Below, one piece after another: positions 46,059 through 54,688 of a stretch of 64,000 nucleotides of DNA; position 1 is the stretch's first letter, and each line of letters begins with the position of its first letter. The notes beneath the pieces are model-generated. The model was not told the origin of the DNA. It saw only the letters and a list, made by a program, of their open reading frames with translations, and searched no databases. The stretch lies in assembly GCA_028875055.1 (NCBI GenBank), contig JAPPGG010000045.1, forward strand, positions 62,001 to 126,000, in the 5' to 3' direction. Origin of the DNA: Chloroflexota bacterium (GTDB taxonomy: Bacteria; Chloroflexota; Dehalococcoidia; Lucifugimonadales; UBA3495). Both the position numbers and the translations under genes were made by a program.

Positions 46059-47153
46059 ATGAACCAGCAAACAATACTCTGCCAAACCCACCTCGACCTG
46101 AATGCCAGGATGGTGCCCTTCGGCGGATGGGATATGCCGGTCCAGTATTCGGGCATCATCAATGAAGTCAAAGCGGTCCGCACCGCGGCAGGAATCTTCG
46201 ACGTTTCCCACATGGGCCGCCTGTACATTTCCGGCCCCCGCTCAGGGGCATTTCTGGACCGGATGCTGACGGGCTCAGCCACTGGTCTGAGGCAGGGACG
46301 CGCCCGCTATTGCCTTATCTGCAATGAGTCCGGCGGCGTCATTGACGACACCATTTTCTATCGCCTTGGCGACGAGGAATTCTTGCTGATACCCAACGCC
46401 GGCAACCGTCCCGCTGTGGTTGAATGGTTCAACCAGTGGATCGAGGCGGAATTCTCGGGCGGAGTAAGCATTGATGACCGGACAACCGAAACCGGCCTGA
46501 TAGCCCTCCAGGGCCCCGGGGCAGCGAATTTGCTGGACAGCCTCTGCACTCTGACCGGAGGCGCCTCGCCATCATCTCTGAGGTTTTTCGCCTGGGGAGA
46601 GGGTGAACTGGGCCCCCACACCGTTTTTGTGGGGCGCACCGGCTACACTGGCGAAGACGGGTTCGAGCTTTCCATGTCCAGCCAGGATGCGACTCCAGTG
46701 TGGAATGCCCTGATGGAAGCGGGGGCGCTTCCCTGCGGGCTTGGGGCCCGCGACGTGCTTCGCCTGGAAGCCGCTCTCCCCCTGCACGGACACGAAATAG
46801 ACGCCAACACATCCCCCATTGAGGCCGGCCTGGACCGGTTTGTCCGTCGCGAGGGCGACTATATAGGACAACCCGTCCTGGCACAGCAGCGCAGCGATGG
46901 AACGGAGCGCCGGCTGGTGGGCCTGAAACTGCCCGGCCGCAGCGCTCCCCGAGCCGAGTACCCGATTCTGGCGAACGGGCAGGAAGTAGGTCGAATAACC
47001 AGCGGCAGCTTTTCGCCCACCCTTGACACCAGCATTGCAATGGGCTACGTTTTTGCGGGCCATTCAGAAGCCGGCACGACACTGGATGTGGACATTCGGG
47101 GTCGCCCGGCAGCTGCGACAGTAGTTCCTCTGCCCTTCTACAGCAGAAGCTGA
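46059..47153 (+). CDS. gcvT: Glycine cleavage system T protein (aminomethyltransferase)
   Basis: Takes the aminomethyl group from lipoyl-GcvH, releases ammonia and makes methylene-tetrahydrofolate. 364 aa. MVPFGGWDMPVQYSGIINE, GIFDVSHMGRL, YTGEDGFELSM and DVLRLEAALPLHGHEID are GcvT marks, and the C-terminal barrel includes EVGRITSGSFSPTLDTSIAMGYV. It is first in gcvT-gcvH-gcvPA-gcvPB. There is no ribosome site, in line with a leaderless message. Confidence 0.95.
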   Translation: MNQQTILCQTHLDLNARMVPFGGWDMPVQYSGIINEVKAVRTAAGIFDVSHMGRLYISGPRSGAFLDRMLTGSATGLRQGRARYCLICNESGGVIDDTIFYRLGDEEFLLIPNAGNRPAVVEWFNQWIEAEFSGGVSIDDRTTETGLIALQGPGAANLLDSLCTLTGGASPSSLRFFAWGEGELGPHTVFVGRTGYTGEDGFELSMSSQDATPVWNALMEAGALPCGLGARDVLRLEAALPLHGHEIDANTSPIEAGLDRFVRREGDYIGQPVLAQQRSDGTERRLVGLKLPGRSAPRAEYPILANGQEVGRITSGSFSPTLDTSIAMGYVFAGHSEAGTTLDVDIRGRPAAATVVPLPFYSRS

Positions 47154-47184
47154 ATCTACCCAACAATCAGGAGGCCGCTACAGG

Positions 47185-47574
47185 ATGAGTCCCGAGGACC
47201 GCAAATATACCCGTGAGCATGAATGGGCCAAGGTGGAAGACGCCGACGCCAAACTGGTTTCCGTAGGCATTACCCACTTTGCCCAGGACGAACTGGGAGA
47301 CATTGTATATTTCGACCTGCCCAACGCCGGCGACAGTGTTGCATACATGCAAAAGATGGGCGAGGTTGAATCGGTAAAGGCCGTCTCCGACCTGTTCTCC
47401 CCGGTCACCGGCAGGATTGACGCCGTGAACAGCGAACTGGTGGACCACCCGGAACTGGTCAACGACGACCCCTTTGAAGCCGGCTGGATCATGCGAGTTG
47501 TGCTGGAGGACCTGGGAGAGCTGGACACCCTCATGTCCGCCAATGAGTACGACGAATATACCGGAGCAAGCTAG
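47185..47574 (+). CDS. gcvH: Glycine cleavage system H protein
   Basis: Lipoyl carrier that moves the aminomethyl group between P, T and L proteins. 129 aa. The lipoylated Lys65 is in GEVESVKAVSDLFSPVTG; the opening YTREHEWAKVED and the GWIMRVVLEDLGELDTLMSANEY end are typical. AGGAGG-type sequence precedes the ATG. It lies 31 bases after gcvT. Confidence 0.96.
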   Translation: MSPEDRKYTREHEWAKVEDADAKLVSVGITHFAQDELGDIVYFDLPNAGDSVAYMQKMGEVESVKAVSDLFSPVTGRIDAVNSELVDHPELVNDDPFEAGWIMRVVLEDLGELDTLMSANEYDEYTGAS

Positions 47575-47703
47575 CGAACCTCAAAGGCCTGAAGAGGGGC
47601 GGTGGCGGAGAGGAGAGCTAATGGAGATCCGCGGCGCGACGGCCGCAATTGCGGGTAGGACTGTTCCTTCCAAAACCGTAGGCGCCACTCAGGAGTATTG
47701 CCC

Positions 47704-49056
47704 TTGACTACTGCCCATTTCCAATCCCACTACATCCCCAACACGGAACGGGAACAGGCCGAGATGCTGGCCACCCTTGGCCTCACTAGCATCGACGAAC
47801 TTTTTCATGACATTCCGGACGAATACCGGAATCCTCCCCTGAATCTGCCGGAACCACTATCGGAGCTGGAAATACAGCGGGAACTGGCCGGACTCGCCTC
47901 AAAAAACCGATCCCTGGGCAGCGGACCATCCTTCCTGGGCGCCGGCTCCTATCACCACTTCATACCGGCCATAGTCAAGGCCCTGATGACCCGGGGAGAG
48001 TTTCTAACCGCTTACACTCCCTACCAGCCCGAGGTAAGCCAGGGCACCCTTCAGGTTATTTACGAGTTCCAGACTCTCATCAGCAGTTTGTTCGGCATGG
48101 AGGTAGCCAACGCCGGCATGTACGACGGCGCTACCAGCCTGGCCGAAGGCGTGCTGATGGCCTGCCGCGTCACCAACCGCGAACGGGTGGCTGTTTCCGA
48201 CACCGTATCTCCCACCTACCTGCAGGTGATTCGCACCTACTGCCAGGCCCACGGCATAGACATCGAGGTGGTCCGGCACTGGGAACCGGAAGTCGGTGAC
48301 GACACTGCCTGCCTCGTCGTTCAATACCCCAATTTCTATGGGGGGCTGGAAGACCTGGGAGACTTTGCCCAGCTGGCCCACGGGCACGGCGCCCTGTTGG
48401 TGGTCTCCACCGACCCCACCGCCTGCGGCATGCTCAACCCGCCAGGACATTACAGCGCAGACATTGTGACGGGAGAGGGACAGCCTTTGGGCATCCCCAC
48501 CAGTTATGGCGGCCCTTACCTGGGCCTCTTTACCTGCAAGGAACAGTACATCAGGCAGATGCCCAGCCGCCTGGTGGGTCGCACGGTGGACAGCCAGGGC
48601 CGGACCGGCTACGTTCTCACCCTCCAGACCCGGGAGCAGCACATCCGCCGGGAACGGGCCACCAGCAACATTTGCACTAACGAGGCCCTTTACGCCCTGG
48701 CATCAACCATTTATCTTGCCGCCATGGGACGGCAGGGTCTGAAGCAGGTTGCTGAACTGTGCTACCACAAGGCCCACTACGCCGCCTCCCGGATAGAATC
48801 CCTGCCAGGGTATAACCTGCCCTTCCAGCGGGGGCCTTTCTTCCAGGAGTTTGTGGTCCAGTGCCCGGCGCCTCCCGCTGAAATCAATCGGAAGTTGATG
48901 GAACGGAACATCCTGGGCGGCCTGGACATCAGCGTTCCACCTTATAGCGCCCCCCTGCCGCCGGACTTGGACAAGGGAATGCTGGTGTGTGTCACCGAGA
49001 TGAACAGCAAGGAAGATATTGACGCTCTGGTAGCAGGGCTGGCGGAGTTTAACTGA
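47704..49056 (+). CDS. gcvPA: Glycine dehydrogenase (decarboxylating) subunit 1
   Basis: N-terminal half of the split P protein. About 450 aa. HYIPNTEREQAEMLATLG, FLGAGSYHHFIPA, TAYTPYQPEVSQGTLQVIYEFQT and SYGGPYLGLFTCKEQYIRQMPSRLVGRT are diagnostic. TTG at 47704 is preferred because AGGAG lies nine bases upstream; TTG at 47698 is too close. 129 bases separate it from gcvH. It overlaps gcvPB by one base (TGATG). Confidence 0.95.
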   Translation: MTTAHFQSHYIPNTEREQAEMLATLGLTSIDELFHDIPDEYRNPPLNLPEPLSELEIQRELAGLASKNRSLGSGPSFLGAGSYHHFIPAIVKALMTRGEFLTAYTPYQPEVSQGTLQVIYEFQTLISSLFGMEVANAGMYDGATSLAEGVLMACRVTNRERVAVSDTVSPTYLQVIRTYCQAHGIDIEVVRHWEPEVGDDTACLVVQYPNFYGGLEDLGDFAQLAHGHGALLVVSTDPTACGMLNPPGHYSADIVTGEGQPLGIPTSYGGPYLGLFTCKEQYIRQMPSRLVGRTVDSQGRTGYVLTLQTREQHIRRERATSNICTNEALYALASTIYLAAMGRQGLKQVAELCYHKAHYAASRIESLPGYNLPFQRGPFFQEFVVQCPAPPAEINRKLMERNILGGLDISVPPYSAPLPPDLDKGMLVCVTEMNSKEDIDALVAGLAEFN

Positions 49057-50528
49057 TGCTCAAAGGTGGATCCAGAGATACCGGCAAGCTCCTGATGGAG
49101 CGCAGCGTCCCGGGCAGGGCCGGCGTGGTTGCCCCTCCCCTGGACGTTCCCGAACAGCCGCTGCCCGATGCGTCCATGCTGCGGGACGATCTGGCGCTGC
49201 CCGAGGTTTCCGAGCCAGAGGTGGTCCAGTACTTTACCGCCCTGAGCCAGCAGAATTTCTCCATCGACACCCAGTTCTATCCCCTGGGCAGCTGTACGAT
49301 GAAGTACAACCCCAAGATCAACGACGAAATGGCCTTCCTGCCGGGTTTTGCGGCCATACATCCGTTGCAACCCCCCGACCAGAGCCAGGGCGCCCTGGAA
49401 CTGCTCCATACACTGCAGGAGTACCTGGGCGAAATTACCGGCATGTCCGGCGTCAGCCTGGCGACCCTGGCCGGCGCCCACGGCGAACTGGCCGGCGTGT
49501 TGATGATGCGGGCCTACCACCACTCCCGCGGCGATACGGGGCGCATCAAGATGGCCATTCCCGACAGCGCCCACGGCACCAATCCAGCCTCTGCAGCCAT
49601 GGCCGGCTTTGAGGTTGTGACGCTGGCCTCGGACGAGGACGGCAACGTGGACCTGGAAGCCCTCCACGAACTGGTGGGTCCGGACCTGGCCGGGGTGATG
49701 ATCACATTGCCCAGCACCCTTGGCCTGTTTGACCGGAACATCGTCGAAGTCTGCCGCATAGTCCACGAGGCGGGTGGCCTGGTGTACGGCGACGGCGCCA
49801 ACATGAACGCCCTGCTGGGCCGCGCCAAGCTGGGCGATTTGGGCTTCGATGTAATCCACCTGAACCTGCACAAGACCTTCAGCACTCCCCACGGCGGCGG
49901 CGGTCCCGGGGCGGGACCCGTATGCTGCGCGCCTATCCTCGAGCCTTACCTGGCAGCCCCCATCGTAACGGCCAGCGCCAACGGGTCAGGTCCAACCTAC
50001 GCGCTGTCCAATCCGGAGCAAAGCATCGGCAAGATGAGCGGGTATCACGGCAACTTTGGCGTGCTGGTCCGCGCTTACACCTACATCCGGACCCTCGGTG
50101 ACGCCGGAATCAAGTCAATTAGCGGAAATGCCGTCCTGAACGCCAACTACCTCTTAGGCGCCCTGAAGGATATCTACTATCTTCCCTATGACCGCACCTG
50201 CATGCACGAAGTGGTACTGTCGGCCGACTGGCAGCGCGCTCGGGGAGTAAGTGGCCTGGACGTGGCCAAGCGACTCCTGGACTACGGATTCCACGCGCCT
50301 ACCATGTACTTCCCGCTCATCGTTCACGAGGCCCTGATGATAGAGCCCACCGAGTCGGAGAACCGGTACACCCTGGACGCGTTCATAGAAGCCCTGCGCC
50401 AGATAAACCGGGAATCTGAAACTGACCCGGACATGGTGCACCACGCCCCTCACACTACCCCGGTGTCCCGGCTGGACGAGGCGGGCGCGGCCCGGCATCC
50501 AGACCTCAGGTGGCGCCCCAAAACCTGA
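49056..50528 (+). CDS. gcvPB: Glycine dehydrogenase (decarboxylating) subunit 2
   Basis: C-terminal half of the split P protein; it carries the PLP lysine, K273, in NLHKTFSTPHGGGGPGAGP. 490 aa. YPLGSCTMKYNPKIND, LAGAHGELAGVLMMRAYH and DSAHGTNPASAAMAGF match the family. Together with gcvPA it decarboxylates glycine and loads GcvH. The L protein (lpd) is not in the window. A hairpin follows the stop. Confidence 0.96.
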   Translation: MLKGGSRDTGKLLMERSVPGRAGVVAPPLDVPEQPLPDASMLRDDLALPEVSEPEVVQYFTALSQQNFSIDTQFYPLGSCTMKYNPKINDEMAFLPGFAAIHPLQPPDQSQGALELLHTLQEYLGEITGMSGVSLATLAGAHGELAGVLMMRAYHHSRGDTGRIKMAIPDSAHGTNPASAAMAGFEVVTLASDEDGNVDLEALHELVGPDLAGVMITLPSTLGLFDRNIVEVCRIVHEAGGLVYGDGANMNALLGRAKLGDLGFDVIHLNLHKTFSTPHGGGGPGAGPVCCAPILEPYLAAPIVTASANGSGPTYALSNPEQSIGKMSGYHGNFGVLVRAYTYIRTLGDAGIKSISGNAVLNANYLLGALKDIYYLPYDRTCMHEVVLSADWQRARGVSGLDVAKRLLDYGFHAPTMYFPLIVHEALMIEPTESENRYTLDAFIEALRQINRESETDPDMVHHAPHTTPVSRLDEAGAARHPDLRWRPKT

Positions 50529-52787: not shown

Positions 52788-53348
52788 TCAGACGCCCTGC
52801 CCTTTGAAGACCCACAACCAGTCCAGGTCTCGCGCGGGACCGGTAACCCATCCGTCCATGGCTTGCTGGCGCTCCGCTTCAATATCCACCCCCAGTCCGT
52901 CGGCCAGGCGGTTCATGAAGTTGAACAGGCAGGTAATGCCCACAACCGACAGTATCTGCTCGTCGGTCAGCCCGAGGTTTCGCAGACCGGCTACATCCGA
53001 TTCTCTCATTTCGGTCGGACTCCTGGTGAGCTTTACCGCAAAGTCCAGCATTCCCCGGGTCTGAGGGTCCAGGTCCGCGGTGGTGTAGTCGTGGAGGATG
53101 TGGCTGGCGTATTCAGGATCGTCCGAGTGTTGACGGAGGAACCCTCCGTGGGAGGAAGCTCAATAGCGGCATTTGTTGATGACGGATACAGCCACCGCGA
53201 TGGACTCCTCCTGCACCCGGGTCAGTTCCGACGCTCCGAAACTTATGGCCTGGTTGAGATTCCTGACCGCCTCCATCATCCTGGAGTTGATGGACATGGA
53301 ACTGATGATGCCTGGCATTCCCACGTCCTCCTGCCGTATCCAGGTCAT
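52788..53348 (-). CDS. AhpD-like (carboxymuconolactone-decarboxylase-fold) selenoprotein with in-frame TGA
   Basis: Read with TGA (53162-53160) as selenocysteine, this is one 186-aa protein, normal for peroxidase-related AhpD-like enzymes. Residues 1-62 end NKCRY, then Sec63, then ASSHGGFLRQH. AhpD's catalytic set Glu118, Cys130, Cys133, His137 maps with exact spacing to E48, C60, U63, H67. Sec thus replaces the peroxidatic cysteine. The C-terminal part (RGMLDFAVKLTRSP, GLTDEQILSVVGITCLFNFMNR) is intact. ATG at 53348 follows GGGGAGG. A SECIS-like hairpin follows the TGA. It lies 72 bases after the cupin gene on the same strand. A recent Cys-to-stop mutation is the alternative. Confidence 0.85.
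53133..53149 (-). promoter_or_regulatory. SECIS-like hairpin of the AhpD-like gene
   Basis: Reading the minus strand, ten bases after TGA comes ACGGAGG-GTT-CCTCCGT: a perfect 7-bp stem with a three-base loop starting with G. The loop G is base 18 after the TGA, inside the spacing seen for bacterial SECIS elements, which sit in the coding region just after the Sec codon. Confidence 0.7.
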
Positions 53349-53807: not shown

Positions 53808-54181
53808 CTTTGTTCTCCTCGTAACAAGGTTGTTTCTCGCGAATCGCGCTTCAACCGGAAATCGATGGCATTGTACCGCATTAACCCCGTTTAATTCGTC
53901 CCTTACTTCCGGTTTCAGGGCAATCGCGCCTTGACTGACTGTCAATCTGAGCCTATCGGCAGGTCTTACCCTGAGCCAGGCCGAAGGGCTGGGGGCGGCA
54001 TAACCACTGTTTAAAGTATCAGCCTCCCCTTGAGAGGCGACTGCCCTGCTTCCGGACTGAGGTTCCCGCTCAATGCGGCGCTGTGCCCTTGCGCTCAGGG
54101 GCGAAAAATGTCCAGACCGTGTACAGGCCTGGAAGGGACCCGTGTTATACTCTCCACCACTCAAATCCGGAGGAGTCAGCG
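53808..54181. other. Divergent intergenic region between the two selenoprotein units
   Basis: No gene supported. A -10-like TATACT stands near 54145-54150 before the OsmC-like gene, without a well-spaced -35. A fragment of the CCCTGAGC-GGCCGAAGGG repeat type lies near 53970-53990. Confidence 0.45.
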
Positions 54182-54688
54182 ATGACCACAGCGGACAATG
54201 ACCGAGTTTCCCGCTCATTTACCATCAACGGCGACGCCATGACCCTGGACGGCATGAAGAAACAGGCGGAGGCCCGCGGCTTCACCATAATGTGCGACGA
54301 AGGCCCTCCCATGGGCGACAATACGGCCCCGTCACCCATGACCTATTTCGCCGTTTCCATTCTCTTTTGAGAAATGACCCAGCTTGAGCGGTACGCTCAG
54401 ATGATGAAGGTGGACCTGGGACAGGTTAAGGCCAATATCGGCTTTTCGGTTTCCTCCGAGGGTTCCGTGCTGCGGCAGACTATTCAGGCCAAGGCCGACA
54501 AAGTCCTCATCCATTATGACGTTGAGTCCAGCGACCCACCCGAAAAAGTTGCCGGCCTGATGCGGAATGCCCGAAACGGCTGCTATGCCCGCCAGTCCTT
54601 TGGTCGCCCCGAACTTTTTGAGGACACCATTAACCTGAACGGCAGCCCTTTTAACCTGGATGACTATCCTGCTCCCGCGGGCGACTAG
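54182..54688 (+). CDS. OsmC-like selenoprotein with in-frame TGA
   Basis: Read with TGA (54368-54370) as selenocysteine, one 168-aa protein. Residues 38-62 (CDEGPPMGDNTAPSPMTYF...) match the OsmC/Ohr block that precedes the first reactive cysteine, and Sec63 stands there (SILF-Sec-EMTQLERYAQMM). A second reactive residue, Cys134 (ARNGCYARQ), fits the partner cysteine of the family. OsmC/Ohr proteins reduce organic hydroperoxides. ATG at 54182 follows GGAGGAG; no ribosome site suits the ATG just after the TGA as an independent start. A SECIS-like hairpin follows. A disrupted pseudogene is the alternative. Confidence 0.85.
54383..54400 (+). promoter_or_regulatory. SECIS-like hairpin of the OsmC-like gene
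   Basis: TGAGCG-GTA-CGCTCA forms a perfect 6-bp stem at 54385-54399. Below it C54383-G54400 pairs with T54384 bulged, recalling the bulged U of the E. coli fdhF SECIS. The loop starts with G, at base 21 after the TGA. Confidence 0.7.

Follow-up and report, generated by a model that had tools for sequence, protein, structure and literature searches.

The window analysed here, a stretch of 64,000 nucleotides from a Chloroflexota bacterium, contains a gene whose reading frame is interrupted by an in-frame TGA (Table 1). Starting from its ATG, the frame comprises 62 sense codons, the TGA and another 105 sense codons before it ends at a TAG (54686-54688). An earlier note on this DNA had described this arrangement, including the upstream ribosome-binding site, and both the sequence and its translation bear it out; the second cysteine named there, Cys134, is likewise seen in the translation. 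Comparison with orthologs from the same genus revealed changes that are mostly synonymous and concentrated at third codon positions, upstream of the TGA as well as downstream. Relative to the same-genus ortholog L037, 19 synonymous and 0 nonsynonymous codons were counted upstream of the TGA, and 27 and 3, respectively, downstream of it. This third-position bias on either side of the TGA argues that the 3' part is translated in frame, and, judged from these codon comparisons, both halves of the frame are under purifying selection.

Table 1. Features of the OsmC-like selenoprotein gene and the evidence on which they are based.
Feature	Position	Strand	Evidence
Shine-Dalgarno-like GGAGGAG, 6 nt ahead of the ATG	54169..54175	+	direct sequence reading
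OsmC-like selenoprotein gene (predicted), 168 residues with Sec63	54182..54688	+	translation, PF02566, NF041052, AlphaFold2 model
UGA read as selenocysteine (predicted), Sec63, UEMT = UxxT	54368..54370	+	shared TGA column; Cys in L059 and PDB 3cje
bSECIS hairpin	54383..54400	+	MFE, UGA-to-loop spacing, conservation
Cys134 codon, predicted Sec63 partner	54581..54583	+	alignment A1; spacing from Sec in 50 loci

A crude search of the window for reading frames that have an internal TGA and a hairpin was non-discriminating, returning 277 candidates and placing the gene outside the top 25, and carries no weight here. One of the orthologs (L031, G036:C42:7964-8377) carries a second in-frame TGA where its relatives have a Trp directly after the second Cys (NGCUVRAA versus NGCWVRAA), for which a sequencing error, a mutation or decay are all possible causes. 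An OsmC locus in a genome of the same genus (G003:C182:3420-3806) apparently contains one TGA and scores in the range of the Cys-type paralog.

The neighbourhood of the gene includes, on the minus strand at 52788-53348, an AhpD/CMD-like gene (TIGR01926, 127 bits) with a TGA in the sequence CRYU, which corresponds to a CxxU motif, and a hairpin (CGGAGG-GUU-CCUCCG) whose loop lies 17 nt downstream of that TGA. Located about 0.8 kb from the OsmC-like gene and conserved in relatives, it is a second selenoprotein candidate. Judged from the ORF translations, there is also an apparent glycine cleavage cluster (gcvT-gcvH-gcvPA-gcvPB) at 46059-50528, whose GcvH is a potential lipoyl donor.

Family assignment and the selenocysteine column

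The product matches the Pfam OsmC domain (PF02566) with 43.9 bits over residues 45-141, that is, across the TGA, and the more specific NCBIfam model NF041052 (OsmC_like_Se) with 144.8 bits over residues 16-154 (cut-off 95). Among 50 genomes of the GTDB family, 29 loci in 26 genomes score above the NF041052 cut-off. Every one of these 29 contains an in-frame TGA, which occupies one shared alignment column in all family loci fetched. A phylum-wide sample of 400 genomes yielded 27 loci above the same cut-off, 26 of them with a TGA; the sole TGA-free locus (L059) has Cys in the Sec column (GVAFCLITQ). The same holds for the solved structure closest by sequence, PDB 3cje, in which CVMTQ aligns with UEMTQ and the second Cys with Cys134. 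Cys-containing relatives thus align at codon 63, and the proposal of the earlier note that the TGA stands at the position of the first reactive Cys is borne out.

OsmC-like selenoproteins carrying a UxxT motif have been known since a Sargasso Sea study of 2005 (PMC1088965), were seen again in the GOS survey (PMC2398784) and are also contained in selenoprotein reviews from 2022 and 2026, in agreement with the marine reports mentioned in the earlier note. Since UEMT fits UxxT, the gene belongs to the already known OsmC_like_Se family.

The hairpin and the selenocysteine machinery

Starting 14 bases past the TGA, a 6-bp stem (TGAGCG-GTA-CGCTCA, 54385-54390/54394-54399) encloses the loop GUA (54391-54393), and below it C54383 pairs with G54400 while T54384 is bulged, exactly as had been noted from the sequence before. 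The MFE is -8.6 kcal/mol. With its 3-nt loop, its 6-bp stem, a G in the first loop position and a UGA-to-loop spacing of 20 nt, the element agrees with all four bSECIS criteria listed in the legend to Figure 2 of PMC13188914. An Rfam scan of the window at gathering thresholds found two tRNAs only and no SECIS family. Taken by itself, the hairpin scored weakly in a dinucleotide-shuffle test (z = -0.82), and we therefore placed the weight on its conservation across species, with random synonymous recoding as a control. When 26 distinct hairpins of Sec-encoding relatives were compared at the six pairs of the stem (156 cells), Watson-Crick pairs were present in 132 of 156 cells, versus 72.4 +/- 5.1 under synonymous recoding (maximum of 92 in 2000 trials), and sliding the hairpin to other registers left only 35-69 paired cells of 156. 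Compensatory changes affect several pairs, among them 19-25 (C-G/A-T), 15-29 (G-C/T-A) and 17-27 (C-G/A-T/T-A/G-C). Relatives keep the 6-bp stem and a loop that begins with G (GUA or GUU), but not the bulged T. L059, the Cys homolog, has lost the stem, with 2 of 6 pairs left and an MFE of -1.8. The stem is missing from the shared register in three divergent family members (L056, L057 and L069), two of which, L056 and L057, seem to form a shifted hairpin instead. By these comparisons, the protein sequence alone does not account for the conservation of the hairpin.

The genome to which the window belongs encodes the machinery needed to use such an element. It contains SelA (450 bits), SelB (C-terminal winged-helix domain, E 7e-22), SelD (L084, G000:C49:5814-6737, minus strand; 385 bits) and a tRNA-Sec with the anticodon TCA (67.5 bits). 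The underlying RF01852 search also picks up other tRNAs, and of its three best loci only the one with 67.5 bits has TCA. The selD gene itself has one in-frame TGA, which parallels known Sec-containing selenophosphate synthetases. Together, the NF041052 score, the Sec column, the conservation of the hairpin and the Sec machinery lend good support to the earlier suggestion that the gene encodes an OsmC-like selenoprotein and carries a SECIS of its own.

Fold, redox residues and paralogs

An AlphaFold2 model of the product, based on an alignment of 29 sequences, reached a pLDDT of 91.7 and a pTM of 0.82. Its best structural matches in the PDB (Foldseek, VIA-align) are OsmC/Ohr proteins (2onf, Z 14.7; 1lql, Z 14.6), and the Ohr of P. 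aeruginosa (1n2f) matches at Z 12.0. Sec63 sits in the long central helix (residues 52-74), and Cys134 lies between helices 120-133 and 135-139. In our alignment A1, P52, C/U63, S116, A130, C134 and N153 are invariant, and D39, E40, G45, P50, Y55 and Q67 are nearly so. In 49 of 50 loci the second Cys lies at Sec+71, and in the remaining one at Sec+72. These observations support a Sec63-Cys134 redox pair that would resemble the Cp-Cr pair of Ohr.

In XfOhr, Glu51, ten residues before the Cp Cys61, holds the catalytic Arg19 (PMC5962072). All 50 loci have Leu or Met at the corresponding position, Cp-10, and none has a Glu at -9. No Arg is invariant in the N-terminal part of A1, where a counterpart of Arg19 may yet lie. 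With the catalytic Glu absent, a standard Ohr peroxidase cycle is less likely. As far as its residues indicate, the product is built on the OsmC plan but misses one defining feature of Ohr hydroperoxide reductases. FTN_1133 (PMC4069020), considered as a cautionary case, was set aside because it is not an Ohr/OsmC relative.

The same genome contains four loci with an OsmC domain, three of which are interrupted by a TGA. One of the paralog families, termed family B (L089, G000 C14:23311-23757, minus strand; also L003), encodes a protein of 149 aa that has Cys at the first site (TACAVNMVE) and the TGA at the second, resolving site (KRRUPLYGSV); in an alignment with an Ohr, this second site falls on the CP motif. 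Its orthologs in the GTDB family have one TGA each (41/41), and the loci that were read out, both in the family and phylum-wide, have it at the second site. In L137 and L144, two relatives from the phylum, this site is Cys and the hairpin is gone. Of 42 distinct rows, 40 preserve the complete family B hairpin (GGUCGC-CGUG-GCGACC). Overall, 249 of 252 pairs are formed versus 188 +/- 4 expected under synonymous recoding, and there are compensatory changes from C-G to U-A and from G-C to C-G. Family C (L118, G000 C50:40325-40819, minus strand; also L004) is an OsmC paralog of 340-400 aa from a different subfamily. In this family, the TGA occupies the first redox site (AAWAAUTVVT), whose partner site is Cys; the TGA is present in 14 of 14 orthologs, and its hairpin (GGUAGGC-GUG-GCCUACC) retains 96 of 98 pairs versus 53 +/- 4 expected under synonymous recoding. 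Both families score above the Pfam OsmC cut-off and far below that of NF041052 (20.7 and 12 bits), and the 2026 review has a single PF02566 entry, with one OsmC selenoprotein (UxxT). It is thus probable that these bacteria possess three separate OsmC-superfamily selenoproteins, with B and C uncatalogued, as judged from two sources, the NF041052 model and the 2026 review, and with Sec at the resolving site in B. If so, family B would place selenium at the other half of the same redox pair, and three OsmC-fold subfamilies with selenium, once at the resolving position, would offer a natural test of the role of selenium in each redox half, in a lineage of largely uncultivated Chloroflexota.

Interpretation and comparison with known systems

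We propose, with a probability of roughly 0.87, that the gene encodes an OsmC_like_Se selenoprotein in which Sec is inserted at UGA63 by means of the hairpin, and that its product most likely acts as a thiol/selenol oxidoreductase. The reading frame, the family, the Sec column, the conserved SECIS, the complete Sec machinery and the predicted fold are established by the sequence comparisons and the model described above; what we infer is that Sec is actually incorporated, that it pairs with Cys134 and that the catalytic cycle runs as outlined below. SelB and tRNA-Sec(UCA) would deliver selenocysteine to the ribosome at UGA63, and the hairpin, which begins 12-14 nt past the UGA and has its loop 20 nt past it, would direct the recoding. 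The mature protein of 168 residues would adopt the OsmC fold, with Sec63 in the central helix opposite Cys134 as the second redox site. The selenolate of Sec63 could then attack an oxidised substrate, be it a peroxide or some other electrophile, the selenenic acid formed in this step could condense with Cys134 to give a selenenylsulfide, and a dithiol donor, either a dihydrolipoyl protein or thioredoxin, may regenerate the reduced enzyme.

If the UGA were an ordinary stop, the 3' part would be a separate or degraded gene, translated from the ATG at 54374, which lies one codon past the TGA and indeed opens an ORF of 104 aa. However, this Met is not conserved among relatives (UEMT, ULLT, UMLT, ULAT), the Cys-containing relatives L059 and 3cje run through codon 63 as single proteins, and a stop would cut the modelled central helix. 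Purifying selection, moreover, acts on both halves, and the protein needs less conservation of the hairpin than is seen. Such a split is very improbable, and the pseudogene reading was rejected. That the frame is open once the TGA counts as a residue would also be expected if UGA were read as tryptophan or by nonspecific readthrough under an altered code. Yet UGA-free homologs have Cys in the aligned position, several orthologous genes of the same lineage end in TGA, and tRNA-Sec, SelA, SelB and SelD are all present in the genome, making an altered code less probable still.

A narrower question is whether the selenoprotein is, more precisely, an organic hydroperoxide reductase of the Ohr type whose recycling depends on lipoyl groups. 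The OsmC/Ohr fold, the occupation of the Cp and Cr sites by Sec and Cys and the upstream glycine cleavage cluster as a possible source of a lipoyl protein speak for such an activity, but the Glu that positions the Arg in Ohr (PMC5962072) is replaced throughout, the product falls into a different subfamily, and a GcvH in the neighbourhood proves nothing. We therefore regard this specific assignment as possible but somewhat doubtful. Of the selenol-based hydroperoxide reductase suggested in the earlier note, the fold, Sec63 and Cys134 agree with Ohr/OsmC proteins and the missing Glu does not, leaving this function no more than plausible.

The OsmC_like_Se assignment extends a known selenoprotein family to a SAR202-type Chloroflexota lineage, in a gene that standard annotation would truncate at the UGA. 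With the OsmC-like selenoproteins described previously (NF041052, PMC1088965), the predicted product has in common the family model, Sec at the first redox site, the UxxT motif and a bSECIS directly downstream, and it differs from them only in its host lineage and exact sequence. The solved structure 3cje, from Jannaschia, matches U63 and C134 with its CxxT-Q motif and second Cys, but has Cys where the product described here would have Sec. With the Ohr/OsmC organic hydroperoxide reductases, finally, the family shares the fold and the two redox positions, whereas the catalytic Glu found at Cp-10 in Ohr is missing.
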